This document shows positions 27,739 to 33,037 of a DNA stretch of 64,000 nt, in pieces. The notes beneath the pieces are model-generated. The model was not told the origin of the DNA and ran no database searches. It worked only from the letters and a program-made list of their open reading frames with translations. Numbering within the stretch: position 1 is the stretch's first letter; the number at the start of each line of letters is the position of its first letter. Origin of the DNA: a bacterium HR40 (GTDB lineage: Bacteria > Pseudomonadota > Alphaproteobacteria > Geminicoccales > Geminicoccaceae); NCBI GenBank assembly GCA_002898275.1, contig BEIQ01000003.1, positions 62,001-126,000 on the forward strand, in the 5' to 3' direction. The position numbers and the translations under genes were made by a program.

Positions 27739-28212
27739 TCAGTGGAGCTTCTGCCGCACCTCTTCGAGCGCCCGGTCGAGAATCGTCCGGCCCTCCTGCG
27801 GGCCGATCCGCTCCGCCAAGATCTGCCGGGTCGCCGCCATCGCCAGCTCCGCTGCCGCCACCCGCACCCGCGCGATGGCGCGGGCCTCTTCCTGCCGGAT
27901 GCGTTCCTCGGCCTGCCGGGTACGGCGCACCACCAGCTCCTCGAACTCGGCCCGGGCCGCTTCTTCGAGGCGCTGCTGCTCGGCTTCGGCGCGGCGCAGG
28001 ATCTCCGCTGCCAACCGCTCCCCTTCGTGCAGCTGGCGCTGGTACCGCGCGAGCAGGGCCTTCGCCTCTTCATGGAGGCGCTGGGCCTCCTCGAGATCGG
28101 CGCGGATGCGTTCGGCGCGCGCATCCAGCGCCGGCAGAACCCGATCGCGGATCGGCCGCCAGAGGAGGACGACGAGGACGAGCAGAGAGACGAACAGCCA
28201 GAATTCGATCAC
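27739..28212 (-). CDS. atpF: ATP synthase F0 subunit b
   Basis: A 157-residue peripheral-stalk subunit. One N-terminal membrane helix (MIEFWLFVSLLVLVVLLW) is followed by a long charged coiled coil and a C-terminal delta-binding part. It starts with ATG inside the b' stop (ATGA, 4-base overlap). The F0 genes end here; the F1 genes are not in the window, as is usual in alphaproteobacteria where F0 and F1 operons are separate. Confidence 0.95.
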   Translation of the reverse strand: MIEFWLFVSLLVLVVLLWRPIRDRVLPALDARAERIRADLEEAQRLHEEAKALLARYQRQLHEGERLAAEILRRAEAEQQRLEEAARAEFEELVVRRTRQAEERIRQEEARAIARVRVAAAELAMAATRQILAERIGPQEGRTILDRALEEVRQKLH

Positions 28213-28808
28213 GGCCTGTGCTCCGCGGCGATCCGGGCGACCACGGCACGCGCCTCTTCGCGATCGACCGCCACCCCTGCGAGCTTGGCGACCGCCGCCT
28301 GCACCACCTCCGCGGCGGCGTCTTCGAGGCCGGCTAGGGCACGGTCGGTGGCTTCCGCCAGTTCACGCTCGGCCCGGGCGATGCGTTCCCTGAGCTCGGC
28401 ATCGAGCTGCGCCTGTCGGCGCGCATAGTCCGCGGCCATCCGCTCCTGCGCGCTGCGCAGCATGGTCCGCGCCCGCTCCTGGGCCTCGGCAACCATCGCC
28501 TCGTAGCGCCGTTGCGTCTCGGCGGCCTCTTCCCGCAGCTTCGCCGCCCGGTCGAGGTCGGCAGCGATGCGATCCTGGCGCGCCTCGAGGATATCCGTCA
28601 CCCGCGGCAGCGCCCTGCGCGAGAGAAGCCAATAGAGCAAGGCAAAGGATACCACGAGCCAGAAGATCTGGCTCGGGTAGCGCGAGGCGTCGAGCTGCGG
28701 CAGGCCGCCCGACCCGTGCTCCGCCTCTCCACCCGTCACCTCCGCGGCCACCGCTGCCGCGGCGAAGAGAAGGGTCGACAGGGCGGCCGCAAGCGATGCC
28801 CACTGCAT
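28209..28808 (-). CDS. atpG: ATP synthase F0 subunit b'
   Basis: A 199-residue b' subunit. A signal-like hydrophobic N-terminus (residues 5-22) is followed by a membrane helix with the family pattern YPSQIFWLVVSFALLYWLL, then a long coiled coil. Paired b and b' genes occur in alphaproteobacteria, cyanobacteria and chloroplasts; b and b' form the heterodimeric stator. Gene naming varies (atpF2, atpG, atpX). It overlaps atpF by 4 bases. Confidence 0.95.
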   Translation of the reverse strand: MQWASLAAALSTLLFAAAAVAAEVTGGEAEHGSGGLPQLDASRYPSQIFWLVVSFALLYWLLSRRALPRVTDILEARQDRIAADLDRAAKLREEAAETQRRYEAMVAEAQERARTMLRSAQERMAADYARRQAQLDAELRERIARAERELAEATDRALAGLEDAAAEVVQAAVAKLAGVAVDREEARAVVARIAAEHRP

Positions 28809-28862
28809 GGCGTCATCCCCTTCGCTCGGCGGGCGGGGCGAAGCCGCCCGCCGCCACAGCGT

Positions 28863-29087
28863 TCACACGAAGAGGACGAGGAACGCGATCAGGAGCGCGA
28901 ACAGGCCGACCGCCTCCACCAAGGCGAAGCCGATGATGGCGAAGGGGAACACCCGCTGCTGGACCGAGGGATTGCGGCCCACCGTGGCAATGAGATTGGA
29001 GAAGATGTTGCCGATGCCGATGCCGACGCCGAAAAGGGCGATGGTCGCGAGGCCGGCGCCGATCATGCGGGCTGCGTCAAGTTCCAT
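28863..29087 (-). CDS. atpE: ATP synthase F0 subunit c
   Basis: A 74-residue proteolipid with two membrane helices and the polar loop GRNPS. The ion-carrying acidic residue is Glu in [19 protein letters not shown], with no sodium-type ligand set visible, so the ring is proton-driven. ATG 29087 gives [14 protein letters not shown]. The gene lies between atpB and the b' gene in the usual order. Confidence 0.97.
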
Positions 29088-29127
29088 GTCCGTGCTCCAG
29101 GCTGACGGTTGCCGACGACCCCCTGCC

Positions 29128-29847
29128 TCAGTGCATGTGGATCGCGTCGTGCAGATAGAGGCAGGTGAGAACGGTGAAGATGTAGGCCTGCAAGAACGCC
29201 ACCACGAACTCGAAGCCGGTGAGAGCGACGGTGACGGCCAGCGGCCCGACGCCAAAGATACCGAGGGCGATGATGAAGCCGGCGAACACCTTGAGCATGG
29301 TGTGCCCGGCCATCATGTTGACGAACAGTCGCACCGACAGGCTGATCGGCCGCACGCAGTAGGACATGATCTCGATAGGCACGAGTAGCGGCAGCATGAT
29401 TTTCGGTGCGCCGTGCGGCACGAAGAAGCCGAGAAACTTGGCACCGTGAAGCCAGAACCCGAGGAAGGTCACGCCGAGCCACACGCAGATGGCCATGAAA
29501 AAGGTCACGATGATGTGGCTCGTGAACGTGAAAGCGCCGGGCACCATGCCAAGCGTATTGCCGGCGAGAATGAACATGAACAAGCTGAACACAGCCGGGA
29601 AGTAGCGCATCGCCTCCTTTCCGGCATTCTCGCGCACGAGATCGCTGACGAATTCGAAAGCGAGCTCCACGAGCGACTGCAGCCTGCCTGGCACCATGGC
29701 CGGCCGCATCGTCCCGGCCATGACAAAGCCGTAGACGGCAGCTACCGAGGCCATCATCCACAACGACGAATTGGTGAAGCTGAGGTCGAACTCGCCGACG
29801 GTGATCGGCACGATCGGCTCGATCCTGAACTGCTCGAGCGGGCTCGC
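29128..29847 (-). CDS. atpB: ATP synthase F0 subunit a
   Basis: A 239-residue multi-span protein. The essential Arg is in [16 protein letters not shown], and the last helix has [23 protein letters not shown] chose GTG 29847 ([11 protein letters not shown]) because AGGAGAGG lies five bases upstream; ATG 29868 would place that site inside the gene. The subunit forms the proton half-channels against the c-ring. Confidence 0.96.
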
Positions 29848-29895
29848 CACCCTTGCCTCTCCTCGCAAGGCGCCCGGTCGATCACGACCGGTCGG

Positions 29896-30231
29896 TCACT
29901 TCCGGGTCTCGCCGTCCAAGAGCATGCCAACGCGCCGCAGATGCCGGTAGGCGTTGAGCAAACCGGCCGCTGCGCCGAGCACGAAGAACACGATCAGGAA
30001 CAGTGGCCGGAGACCGGTCCAGTGGTCGAGCGCCCAACCGACCGCGAGGCCGACCGCCACCCCGGCGATCACCTCGATGCCGGCTTGCACACCGTGGCCG
30101 AGCGGTCGGTCCTCGCTGCCGCTCCTGCCCGGGCCACGCCCCTGCTGCGGCTCCCCCTTCTTGCGCGCCCGCGCGAGCTTGGCGTCGAACTCGCCGAACG
30201 GGGAAGGTGAGCCTGCGCTCTCCGGTGCCAT
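29896..30231 (-). CDS. atpI: ATP synthase protein I
   Basis: A 111-residue AtpI/AtpR-type protein, first gene of the F0 operon. The N-terminus is charged and cytoplasmic. Two membrane helices follow (about 50-68 and 75-93), separated by the short loop DHWTGLRP, with GVAVGLAVGWALDHWTG as family signature. It is thought to help c-ring assembly. The charged RKKG start region is typical of the alphaproteobacterial form. Confidence 0.92.
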   Translation of the reverse strand: MAPESAGSPSPFGEFDAKLARARKKGEPQQGRGPGRSGSEDRPLGHGVQAGIEVIAGVAVGLAVGWALDHWTGLRPLFLIVFFVLGAAAGLLNAYRHLRRVGMLLDGETRK

Positions 30232-30400: not shown

Positions 30401-30844
30401 ATGCGCATGCGTCACGGGCTCGTTCTCCTGCTCCTCTTGTGGCTGCCATTCCCGCTCCTCGCTCAGGGCTTCGATCTCGCCGAGCGCGGACGGCAACTGG
30501 GCCTCGACGATCCTCTCGCCTTCGCGACGACGGTCGAGCATGTCTGTCGCGACCGCCGCCTGCCCGACCGCTATGTGACGAAGGAGGAGGCGCGGCGGCT
30601 CGGCTGGGAGCCCGGCCAGGACCTGTGTCGGGTGGCGCCCGGACGGGCGATCGGTGGCGATCGCTTCGCCAACCGCGAACGGCTGCTCCCGGAGGCCCCG
30701 GGGCGCGTCTGGTACGAGGCCGACCTCGACTATGCCTGCGGCCCGCGCGGGCCGCGCCGTCTGGTGTTCTCGAGCGACGGGCTCGTCTTCGTCAGCGTCG
30801 ACCACTATCGCTCGTTCTGTCTCGTGCCGTGTCCCCAGCCCTGA
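30401..30844 (+). CDS. Exported barnase-type guanyl-preferring ribonuclease
   Basis: A 147-residue protein with a signal peptide (MRMRHG, hydrophobic run, cleavage near LLAQ). The mature part aligns with barnase along its whole length: LPDRYVTKEEARRLGW, VAPGRAIGGDRFANRE, YEADLDY and SSDGLVFVSVDHYRSF. The catalytic set is intact: Glu106 (barnase E73), Arg116 (R83), Arg120 (R87) and His135 (H102). Barnase K27 corresponds to Arg. Five cysteines (49, 76, 113, 140, 144) are absent from barnase and suggest disulfides outside the cytoplasm. It should cleave RNA by the cyclising RNase T1/Ba mechanism. The stop overlaps the barstar-fusion start by 16 bases. Confidence 0.95.
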   Translation: MRMRHGLVLLLLLWLPFPLLAQGFDLAERGRQLGLDDPLAFATTVEHVCRDRRLPDRYVTKEEARRLGWEPGQDLCRVAPGRAIGGDRFANRERLLPEAPGRVWYEADLDYACGPRGPRRLVFSSDGLVFVSVDHYRSFCLVPCPQP

Positions 30845-31935
30845 AAGTCGTCTACCTCGGGCCCGCCGAACGCACCCAGCCAGCCATCCTGGCGCGGCTC
30901 GCGCGCGAGCTCGGCTTCCCCTCCTGGTTCGGCCACAATCGCGACGCCCTCTTCGATCTCCTCACCGGCTGGGTGGCGGGACCTCTGCGCGTCGTCTGGC
31001 GGACGACCCCGGCCGTCCGCGCTGCCCTCGGCGACGACTATGCGGCGCTCCGCCAGACCCTGCTCGACGCCGCTGCCATGCGGGACGATCTCGCTGTCGT
31101 GCTGCTCGAGGACGACGGGCAACCGGACCCTTCTCGACCCTTGCGGGTGGCAGTTGGCGGTCTGGGCGCGACGGGGGCCTTCGTCGCCCGGCATCTCCAG
31201 CACGGCATCCCCGGACTGGCGCTCGTCGCGGTCGCCTCCGTGGCACCCCGCGCGGTCGCCGCTCGCCGGCTCGCCGCCTCGGTCCCGCCGCCGTCGCTCG
31301 TGAGCCTCGAGCGGCTCGCAGAACTCGCCGATGTCGTGGTGGCCTGTGTGCCCTGCCGCTGGTTCCCCACGGTTGCCGCTCCCGCGGTCGAGCTCGGACG
31401 CCTGCTCGTCGCCGCCTCCGCCGTGCCCCTCGCCGCCGAGCCTGGGCTCGTCCGGCGAGCCGGAGCGACCGGTGCCCGCATCCTCGTCGCGGGCGATGCC
31501 GTTCCCGGGCTCGAACTGCTGCGTGCGGCAGCAGCGACGGGAGTCGACCGAGTGCGCCTTTCGCTCCACCGGCCGCCCCGGGCCCGCGATCCGCGACCGG
31601 ATGCCGGTGAGGCGACCGCGGAACCCGCGGCCGAGCCGGAAGCCCGCCTGCTGTTCGCGGGCGATGGGGATGGAGGGTTGCGCGGCCCGCCAGAAGTGGC
31701 CGAGGCGGCAGCCTCGCTCCGGCTGCTGGGCATTGCCGCCTCGCGCATCCACCTCGAGCTCTGGGCCGATCCCGGGGGCGACGACGAGCGCAAGGAGCTC
31801 TCGGTCGAGGCCAGAGGCTGCCGTTTCACCCTCACCCTCGTGGGCGGCCGGACGCCGTGGAGCCGTCCCTGTGCTCGCCAGGCTCTCCTCGCGCTCCTGC
31901 ACCGGATCGCGACCCCGCTCGCGGTCGGCAGCTGA
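30829..31935 (+). CDS. Barstar inhibitor fused to L-aspartate dehydrogenase-like domain
   Basis: A 368-residue fusion from GTG 30829, inside the RNase gene. Residues about 5-95 are a barstar domain: GFPSWFGHNRDALFDLLTGWV matches barstar around its barnase-binding helix, with Asp39 and Asp43 at barstar D35 and D39, and Asp80 near E76. Residues about 105-368 follow the NadX / L-aspartate dehydrogenase plan: Rossmann GLGATG (111-116), VDRVRLSLHRPPRA, EVAEAAASLRLLGI and SRIHLELWADP with VEARG. The usual PKNxNVA substrate motif is replaced by a PPEVAEA-type stretch, so catalysis on aspartate is doubtful. No start codon suits a separate dehydrogenase. It is probably the cytoplasmic immunity protein for the RNase, with an added NAD(P)-binding module of unknown use. 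Confidence 0.92.
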   Translation: MSPALKVVYLGPAERTQPAILARLARELGFPSWFGHNRDALFDLLTGWVAGPLRVVWRTTPAVRAALGDDYAALRQTLLDAAAMRDDLAVVLLEDDGQPDPSRPLRVAVGGLGATGAFVARHLQHGIPGLALVAVASVAPRAVAARRLAASVPPPSLVSLERLAELADVVVACVPCRWFPTVAAPAVELGRLLVAASAVPLAAEPGLVRRAGATGARILVAGDAVPGLELLRAAAATGVDRVRLSLHRPPRARDPRPDAGEATAEPAAEPEARLLFAGDGDGGLRGPPEVAEAAASLRLLGIAASRIHLELWADPGGDDERKELSVEARGCRFTLTLVGGRTPWSRPCARQALLALLHRIATPLAVGS

Positions 31936-31945
31936 CGCCGCCGTT

Positions 31946-33037
31946 CTAGGCTTCGGCGTGGGCAGCCAGCGCCGACCAGTCGAAGGCGACCCCGTGACCC
32001 GGTCGTTCGGGGGCTATCGCGAAGCCGTCGGCGATCGCGAGCGGCTCGGCGATGAAGCGGTCGAGTCCGAAGCCGTGCACCTCGAGGAAGGAGCGGTTGG
32101 GCAGGGCGGCGAGCAGGTGGACGGTCAGGTCGTGGGCACCGTGGGAGGTCACCGGCAGTCCGTACGCCTCGGCGAGATGAGCGATCGCGAGGAAGGTGGT
32201 GATTCCGCCGCAGTTGGTGGCATCCGGCTCGGGGAAGGCCACACCGCCCGCTTCGATCAATAGCCGGAACTCGGCCAGCGAACGGAGATTCTCGCCAGCG
32301 GCGACGGCGAGCCCGCCTTCCCGCATGACCCGTACGTGCCCGCCAATGTCCTCGGGCACGACCGGTTCCTCGAGCCAGAGCGGATCGAAGGGAGCGAGCG
32401 CCCGCGCCGCCCGCACGGCTTGATCCGCCGTCCAGCGCATATTGGCGTCGAGCATGAGCGGGACATCCGGCCCGAGATGTTCGCGCATCGCCCGCACCCG
32501 CTCGACATCCTCGGAGAGTCGCGGCCTCCCGACCTTCATCTTGATCGCCCGGAATCCCGCTGCCAGGAAGCGGTCGGCCTGGTCGAGCAGGCGATCGAGC
32601 GGGAAGTCGAGATCGATCCCGCCCGCATAGCACGGGACCTTGGGATCGAAGCCGCCGAGAAAGCGCCACAGAGGCAGACCGACCCGCCGGGCGCGAAGAT
32701 CGAACAGCGCGATGTCGACGGCCGAGAGCGCGAGCGTGAGCGGTCCGCCGCGGCCGCCGTAATGGGTCGCCCAGGTCAGACGATGGCGGATCGCGGCGTG
32801 CCGTTCGGGATCTTCGCCGAGCAGTCGCGGGACGAGATCGCGTTCGAGCGAGGCGCGGATGGCCCCGCCATTGGTGCCGACAGTGTAGGTCCAACCCACC
32901 CCTTCCGCCCCGTCGCTGTCGATCAGCCGAACGGTGACGTGCTGGAAATGCGCGATGCTGCCGTGGGTGCTGTCGGAGAGCACCGCCGGCAGGGGAATGC
33001 GGAACAGTCCGACTTCGGCACGCTCGATGCGGCTCAT
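31946..33037 (-). CDS. Mandelate racemase/muconate-lactonizing-type enolase superfamily enzyme
   Basis: A 363-residue enzyme. Barrel motifs are KMK in FRAIKMKVGRP (the KxK base), metal ligands Asp in LMLDAN, Glu in WLEEP and Glu in AAGEN, and His in VTSHGAHD as the second base. The pattern fits the mandelate racemase subgroup, which includes several sugar-acid dehydratases. The substrate cannot be set from sequence. It could serve sugar acids together with the lactonase/dehydratase pair at 15-18 kb, but it is not linked. It converges on the barstar-fusion gene with a 10-base gap. Confidence 0.88.
   Translation of the reverse strand: MSRIERAEVGLFRIPLPAVLSDSTHGSIAHFQHVTVRLIDSDGAEGVGWTYTVGTNGGAIRASLERDLVPRLLGEDPERHAAIRHRLTWATHYGGRGGPLTLALSAVDIALFDLRARRVGLPLWRFLGGFDPKVPCYAGGIDLDFPLDRLLDQADRFLAAGFRAIKMKVGRPRLSEDVERVRAMREHLGPDVPLMLDANMRWTADQAVRAARALAPFDPLWLEEPVVPEDIGGHVRVMREGGLAVAAGENLRSLAEFRLLIEAGGVAFPEPDATNCGGITTFLAIAHLAEAYGLPVTSHGAHDLTVHLLAALPNRSFLEVHGFGLDRFIAEPLAIADGFAIAPERPGHGVAFDWSALAAHAEA

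Follow-up and report, generated by a model that had tools for sequence, protein, structure and literature searches.

A barstar joined in frame to an aspartate dehydrogenase-derived domain, and other barstar-enzyme fusions in one alphaproteobacterial family

The window analyzed here is a stretch of 64,000 nucleotides from the genome of bacterium HR40 (Geminicoccaceae; contig BEIQ01000003.1). Within it, a gene for a barnase-type RNase (147 aa; 30401..30844, + strand) is followed by an open frame of 368 aa (30829..31935, +) which starts with a GTG inside the RNase gene, the end of one and the start of the other overlapping by 16 bases (30829..30844, +) in toxin-then-immunity order. The second frame encodes a barstar domain (residues 1–95; 30829..31113, +), a short in-frame linker without a stop (about residues 96–104; 31114..31140, +) and a domain derived from aspartate dehydrogenase (AspDH) (residues 105–368; 31141..31932, +). 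On reading the window DNA, the barstar and AspDH halves formed a single frame with 0 stops or frameshifts between them. The coordinates, the frames, the overlap and the unbroken junction had all been given in a preliminary description of this DNA, and proved correct on re-reading.

The gene pair is flanked by F0 ATP synthase genes (AtpI-like, subunit a and subunit b; 28209–30231, –) and, on the strand opposite to the pair, by an enolase-superfamily gene (31946–33037, –). A consensus scan gave 0 promoter-like and 0 terminator-like sites (shuffles gave 0.0 and 0.4), and PADLOC returned nothing for the window RNase or the window fusion.

Given that the source genome is the only one available for its genus, we considered whether a sequencing or assembly artefact had joined two genes. 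However, the junction lies well within a 402-kb contig (401,790 bases) of a 2.89 Mb assembly that has 8 contigs, a completeness of 100 and a contamination of 0.08, and parallel fusions of barstar to HPRT and short-chain dehydrogenase (SDR) partners were found in other genomes (see below). We therefore regard an artefact as extremely improbable, and the sequencing frameshift, which the preliminary description had named among the things that would refute its claim, as unlikely.

The RNase matched PF00545 with 52.2 bits (cut-off 24) and solved PDB structures of barnase and binase with E values down to 1e-28. Its catalytic set of Glu106, Arg116, Arg120 and His135 is complete, each residue at the position previously given for it; in the family RNases (n = 19) Arg116, Arg120 and His135 were conserved in 19/19 and Glu106 in 18/19. 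The N-terminus is hydrophobic and, judged by eye, signal-peptide-like, ending in LLAQG, which suggests that the RNase is probably exported. The five cysteines noted earlier (Cys 49, 76, 113, 140 and 144) are likewise where they had been placed, and they fit an exported enzyme.

Cysteines were counted in 19 of the 21 family RNases, with L046 and L054 (TGA within the match) and the weak G014 match left out. Cys76 and Cys113 co-occurred in all 19, and of the 14 class RNases in which both columns were covered, 6 had both and 8 had neither. This both-or-neither pattern in the class, and the presence of the pair throughout the family RNases examined, supports a predicted Cys76–Cys113 disulfide. In the PDB alignment these two residues are matched by cysteines of the barnase 1bne, at chain positions 43 and 80, which we take to form an engineered stabilising disulfide. 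Cys49 was accompanied by Cys144 in 6/19 family RNases (genera g2 and g15), Cys144 was found without Cys49 in 2/19, and Cys140 was seen in the window RNase alone among these.

Fusion residues 16–83 matched the Barstar family PF01337 with 60.7 bits (cut-off 23.4), and the barstar half matched PDB barstar with an E value of 4e-8. Asp39 and Asp43 align with the barnase-binding DxxxD motif of Bacillus barstar, in agreement with the equivalents of barstar Asp35 and Asp39 proposed before. An AlphaFold2 model of the fusion (input, window and locus sequences) had a mean pLDDT of 88.7 and a pTM of 0.71, with block pLDDT values of 87–97 over residues 1–90 and a mean of 72 for the linker block of residues 91–100. 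At 368 aa the protein departs from the small stand-alone form that is usual for a barstar, although this trait is not a defining one. In known pairs barnase is exported and barstar protects the cytosol. Here, too, the barstar half would most likely block the active site of the RNase inside the cell.

For the other half, residues 103–367 scored 124.7 bits against the AspDH model NF009825, below its cut-off of 253, and the match to Pfam Asp_DH_C was also below its cut-off (20.1 bits against 27). The top Foldseek matches to the fusion model were 1j5p (E 5e-14) and 1h2h (E 7e-14), both of them TM1643, an AspDH. VIA-align gave Z scores of 21.5 to 2dc1 and of 21.4 to 1h2h and 1j5p, over 228–230 residues with an rmsd of 2.4–2.8 Å, the entries after the AspDHs standing at Z 16.3. 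The C-terminus of the fusion ends level with its AspDH relatives, most of which end in VGS or VGT. Each half is backed by matches to a family and to a fold, which makes the joined protein more than a product of chance.

The active site was compared with 17 AspDHs whose loci were available, 13 of them belonging to this family and 4 to other families within the class; a copy in G029 (cut by the contig end) and weaker matches lacking loci were not part of this set. Alignment A1, which stacked barstars on Rossmann domains, was dropped and alignment A3 used instead. Sixty-seven columns were conserved in at least 16/17 AspDHs, and the window domain retains 42 of them. Four residues invariant in the AspDHs (17/17) are replaced: a His by Lys322, the Asn of FPxNxNVA by Glu292, the Asp of GLD by Glu229 and the Arg of RKPP by His247. 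The His and the Asn also occur at the aligned places of the solved AspDHs 2dc1, 1j5p and 1h2h, and we take these two columns to be catalytic in AspDH. Further changes were D140 to Pro, E172 to Ala and G223 to Asp (all invariant columns) and G199 to Val (16/17), positions that we place near the cofactor from general knowledge of such folds. The GxGxxG dinucleotide loop is retained 3/3 (G111, G113 and G116).

Because the AspDH cut-offs were failed and invariant active-site residues lost, while the fold and GxGxxG were kept, the dehydrogenase half is probably a pseudoenzyme. A bifunctional protein whose fused AspDH retains aspartate/oxaloacetate chemistry would agree with the retained fold, but with 17/17-invariant residues replaced, those at the His and FPxNxNVA positions being shared by solved AspDHs, and with scores below both the Pfam and the NCBIfam cut-offs, it is the least credible of the readings considered. 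Where the preliminary description had seen a NadX-like fold and a dehydrogenase layout, the predicted model upheld the fold, giving the structural match of this half to AspDH (Z 21.4–21.5) whose absence had been named as a refutation, and the active site did not follow, its invariant residues being replaced. The altered substrate motif PKNxNVA that it had pointed out is genuine, the Asn of FPxNxNVA being Glu292 in the window; its suggestion of a dehydrogenase regulated by an RNase is not supported as worded, given the loss of the invariant active-site residues. Nor is its other suggestion, an immunity depending on NAD(P). In a related reading, dinucleotide binding by the Rossmann domain would tune barstar stability or barnase binding. 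The intact GxGxxG loop speaks for it, but with D140, E172, G199 and G223 all changed near the presumed cofactor site we consider it distinctly improbable.

The tail could instead be a decaying passenger: the barstar would work, and the gene joined to it would erode, tolerated since stops are rare in GC-rich DNA. Identity of the tail to AspDHs that aligned with most of its length was low, 38–40% at best, as such a passenger would show. Neutral decay was simulated with a model of substitutions only, using guessed parameters and starting from 15 of the 17 AspDH relatives. At 60, 50 and 42% identity, 118, 96 and 68 of 300 neutral copies, respectively, were still without a stop, and so, because neutral copies in GC-rich DNA often lack stops, the long open frame alone is weak evidence of constraint. 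GC at the three codon positions was 0.845/0.609/0.812 in the tail and 0.806/0.490/0.857 in the barstar half; the raised second-position value in the tail (0.609 against 0.490) fits relaxed constraint. Against decay, 0 frameshifts had accumulated across about 264 codons, the AspDH fold is predicted with confidence, and conserved nonpolar positions, core and glycines, were kept far more often than polar ones (38/52 against 4/15; Fisher p 0.002). The simulated decay matched this contrast in only 2, 1 and 0 of 300 runs (60, 50 and 42% identity). We regard a decaying passenger as unlikely, though it is the strongest of the alternatives; with a single genome carrying the fusion, the kept fold and lost active site may reflect selection on the tail.

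We next looked for the fusion in other genomes. The family set comprised 31 genomes, equal to the whole order as sampled, with the window genome as the sole representative of its genus. A strong RNase match with a barstar beside it was present in 21 of the 30 family relatives (the RNase match of G014 was weak), and the barstars of 20 of these 21 could be read to a stop, that of G028 being cut by the contig end. None of the 30 relatives showed a barstar-AspDH fusion, and the window genome stands alone among the 31. Absence from close relatives had been named in the preliminary description as something that would count against the fusion, and it was indeed seen in none of the 30, all of them from other genera of the family. 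A separate AspDH-like match was found in 15/30 family relatives, none of which belonged to g2 or g15 (7 genomes), the two genera closest to the window in RNase sequence. In the window genome the fused copy is the only AspDH match; the best NadB match there reached 335.7 bits, below the cut-off of 452.75.

Across 385 genomes of the class, with at most 5 candidates scored per genome, 95 matched the fusion protein and none but the window matched both halves. One of these, G177, had appeared to be a second barstar-AspDH fusion (match to query residues 35–367), but its DNA was that of a plain AspDH with a chance extension upstream. Stretches past the barstar stop (TGA) in G021, G012 and G025, tried as possible AspDH remnants, bore no resemblance to AspDH by eye. 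The fusion protein had 0 matches in phages and viral contigs; 14 plasmid records matched, all of them solely through the AspDH half, and a plasmid search with just the barstar half had 0 matches. When genome contigs were scanned, five barstars turned up in named genomes (identity of the best segment 32–41%, one match reported over query residues 30–140), and when read to the stop, 0/5 had an enzyme after the barstar.

Barstars with other enzymes behind them were, however, found within the family, two kinds of fusion which the preliminary description had missed, correct as it was on the barnase, the barstar and the in-frame AspDH-derived domain. Genome G011 encodes a barstar-phosphoribosyltransferase of 269 aa (L062:3729-4538, –; Barstar 33.3 bits, Pribosyltran 73.9), whose partner we named HPRT (hpt) from its motif. 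In genus g16, two species (G018 and G024) encode barstar-SDR proteins of 352 aa (L060:4144-5202, +; Barstar 31.8 bits, adh_short_C2 229.5) and 363 aa (L061:2910-4001, –; Barstar 34.9 bits, adh_short_C2 232.8). In all three proteins both halves exceed the Pfam cut-offs, and all three genes directly adjoin a barnase gene, downstream of it. The PRPP loop in the enzyme half of G011 and the SDR Ser-Tyr-Lys in G018 and G024, which we take as the textbook motifs, appear intact by eye. Together with the window case this makes at least three fusions at the barstar C-terminus within the family, each specific to its lineage, and this repeated joining of barstar to enzymes within one family is a stronger finding than the window fusion itself.

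SDRs and HPRT have dinucleotides or nucleotides as ligands. That these partners, too, use nucleotides or dinucleotides would suit an NAD(P)-responsive immunity, but their unlike folds and ligands disfavour one common sensing principle.

The fusions of G011, G018 and G024 have an internal ATG at the junction, where translation of the enzyme as a protein of its own could also begin. The same might be asked of the window, where TTG and GTG codons lie in frame at the junction and a stand-alone AspDH-like protein could start at residue 105 or 107 in addition to the fusion. By eye, no Shine-Dalgarno-like stretch precedes the window TTG/GTG, and since the frame runs through the junction without a stop, the fusion would be made anyway; we hold two products from the window frame to be very improbable.

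In genus g6, hpt directly follows a separate barstar in 5/6 genomes (L066, L068, L069, L074 and L077), and this separate gene is 67–76% identical to the fusion partner of G011. An arrangement like that of g6 could plausibly have preceded the G011 fusion. The gene order barnase-barstar-hpt in g6 brings an enzyme of purine salvage close to an RNase that is probably exported, which suggests RNA scavenging. The HPRT-like half of the G011 fusion matched only itself in that genome, which is 70% complete. Matches to the family HPRT were found in 28/31 family genomes, a few of them weak and partial, with none in the window genome (completeness 100). PADLOC gave weak matches (E 2e-4) of the G011 fusion to PsyrT and ShosT, which are phosphoribosyltransferase-like toxins, and nothing for the barstar-SDR protein of G018. 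For the g16 pair, dN/dS (Nei-Gojobori) was 0.73 in the barstar half and 0.23 in the SDR half; the barstar there appears to be under weak constraint at best, and because of its value of 0.73 a strongly kept immunity function in g16 is disfavoured.

Outside the family, the class sample (385 genomes) held 22 barstar places, 21 of which were read to a stop and ended no more than 52 residues past the domain, the last having a frame of 173 aa. The phylum sample (398 genomes) held 66 other barstar places over the Pfam cut-off: 19 were read and ended no more than 50 residues past the domain, 2 had already been covered in the class reading, and the other 45 lay in open frames no longer than 181 aa in all. 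Many barstars of the phylum sample appear to belong to another subfamily, and one that was counted (G701) holds internal stops. Three phylum places below the Pfam cut-off were left out of the count, and one of them, G586:C74, sits in a much longer, unrelated-looking enzyme frame. With three places common to both samples, there were 85 distinct barstars outside the family, and none was fused to an enzyme, as judged from reading to the stop for 39 and from frame length (at most 181 aa) for 46. Enzyme-fused barstars were thus 4/21 in the family against 0/85 outside it (p 0.001), or 3/20 against 0/85 when counted as three events (p 0.006), both comparisons ignoring kinship and mixing barstar subfamilies. 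Against 20 of the class barstars alone the difference was non-significant (p 0.11; with three events as 3/17, p 0.09).

Taken as a whole, our favored reading, to which we give somewhat better than even weight, is that the window encodes a probably exported barnase and a cytosolic barstar joined to an AspDH that kept its fold and lost its chemistry, leaving a folded pseudoenzyme tail. The RNase would be exported and the barstar half would guard the cytosol. The barstar gene would have been joined in frame to an aspartate dehydrogenase gene, perhaps by loss of the barstar stop codon, a step that we propose because relatives have barstar and hpt as separate neighbors, the only direct hint of it. 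With its chemistry lost and its fold kept, the dehydrogenase half may serve as a folded tail that dimerises or stabilises the inhibitor. Solved AspDHs are dimers, and this is the one ground on which a dimerising tail is proposed.

A wider reading, which we offer tentatively and consider possible rather than probable, is that barstar in this family repeatedly captures metabolic enzymes at its C-terminus, at least three times so far, and that the partner captured in the window became a pseudoenzyme which dimerises, stabilises or gates the barstar. If so, immunity in G011, where the partner is possibly the only HPRT of the cell, would be tied to a housekeeping enzyme that is kept in production.

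Barnase and barstar are among the best-studied protein pairs, and barstar is known as a small stand-alone protein. Like the barnase-barstar pair of Bacillus amyloliquefaciens (Imm-Barstar), the window has an inhibitor gene that overlaps the end of the RNase gene before it, with the catalytic residues and DxxxD conserved; unlike that pair, its inhibitor continues into an AspDH-derived domain of 264 residues, and its RNase has five cysteines. With L-aspartate dehydrogenase (NadX/TM1643; 1j5p, 1h2h, 2dc1; NF009825) the tail shares the fold, the GxGxxG loop and the C-terminal end, but it is fused to a barstar, the invariant His, Asn, Asp and Arg are replaced, and its scores fall below the cut-offs. 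The barstar-HPRT of G011 and the barstar-SDRs of G018 and G024 share with the window fusion a barstar N-terminus, an enzyme C-terminus, a single frame and a place directly after the barnase gene; their enzyme halves keep their motifs, score far above the family cut-offs and have an internal ATG, whereas the window half has none of these. The family fusions form a natural series in which to study the effect of a permanent tail on an immunity protein, and the way in which an enzyme becomes a pseudoenzyme once its gene is fused to another.

In the open-access literature (subscription papers being outside the scope) we found no described case of a barstar joined to an enzyme, and nothing on barstar together with aspartate dehydrogenase. 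The toxin-then-immunity order of the window is that of the simple pairs described in passages of PMC3482391. Passages of PMC3482391, PMC2700814 and PMC4534456 make no mention of a barstar fused to an enzyme, and passages of PMC5554190 on AspDHs name no active-site residue. The barstar-AspDH architecture is real and unusual, and our searches turned up no earlier description of it; it is a variant of barnase-barstar and not a new kind of system.

Shared synteny between the barstar loci of relatives and the window was also considered and rejected, as 0/18 of the longer loci held a match (E 1e-10) to the AtpI, AtpB, enolase-superfamily or glycosyltransferase proteins of the window. In genome G003 (L086:4495-6403), an enolase-superfamily gene comes directly after a stand-alone AspDH-like gene and shares 28% identity with the enolase-superfamily neighbor of the window fusion, an order that is perhaps a faint trace of a common neighborhood.
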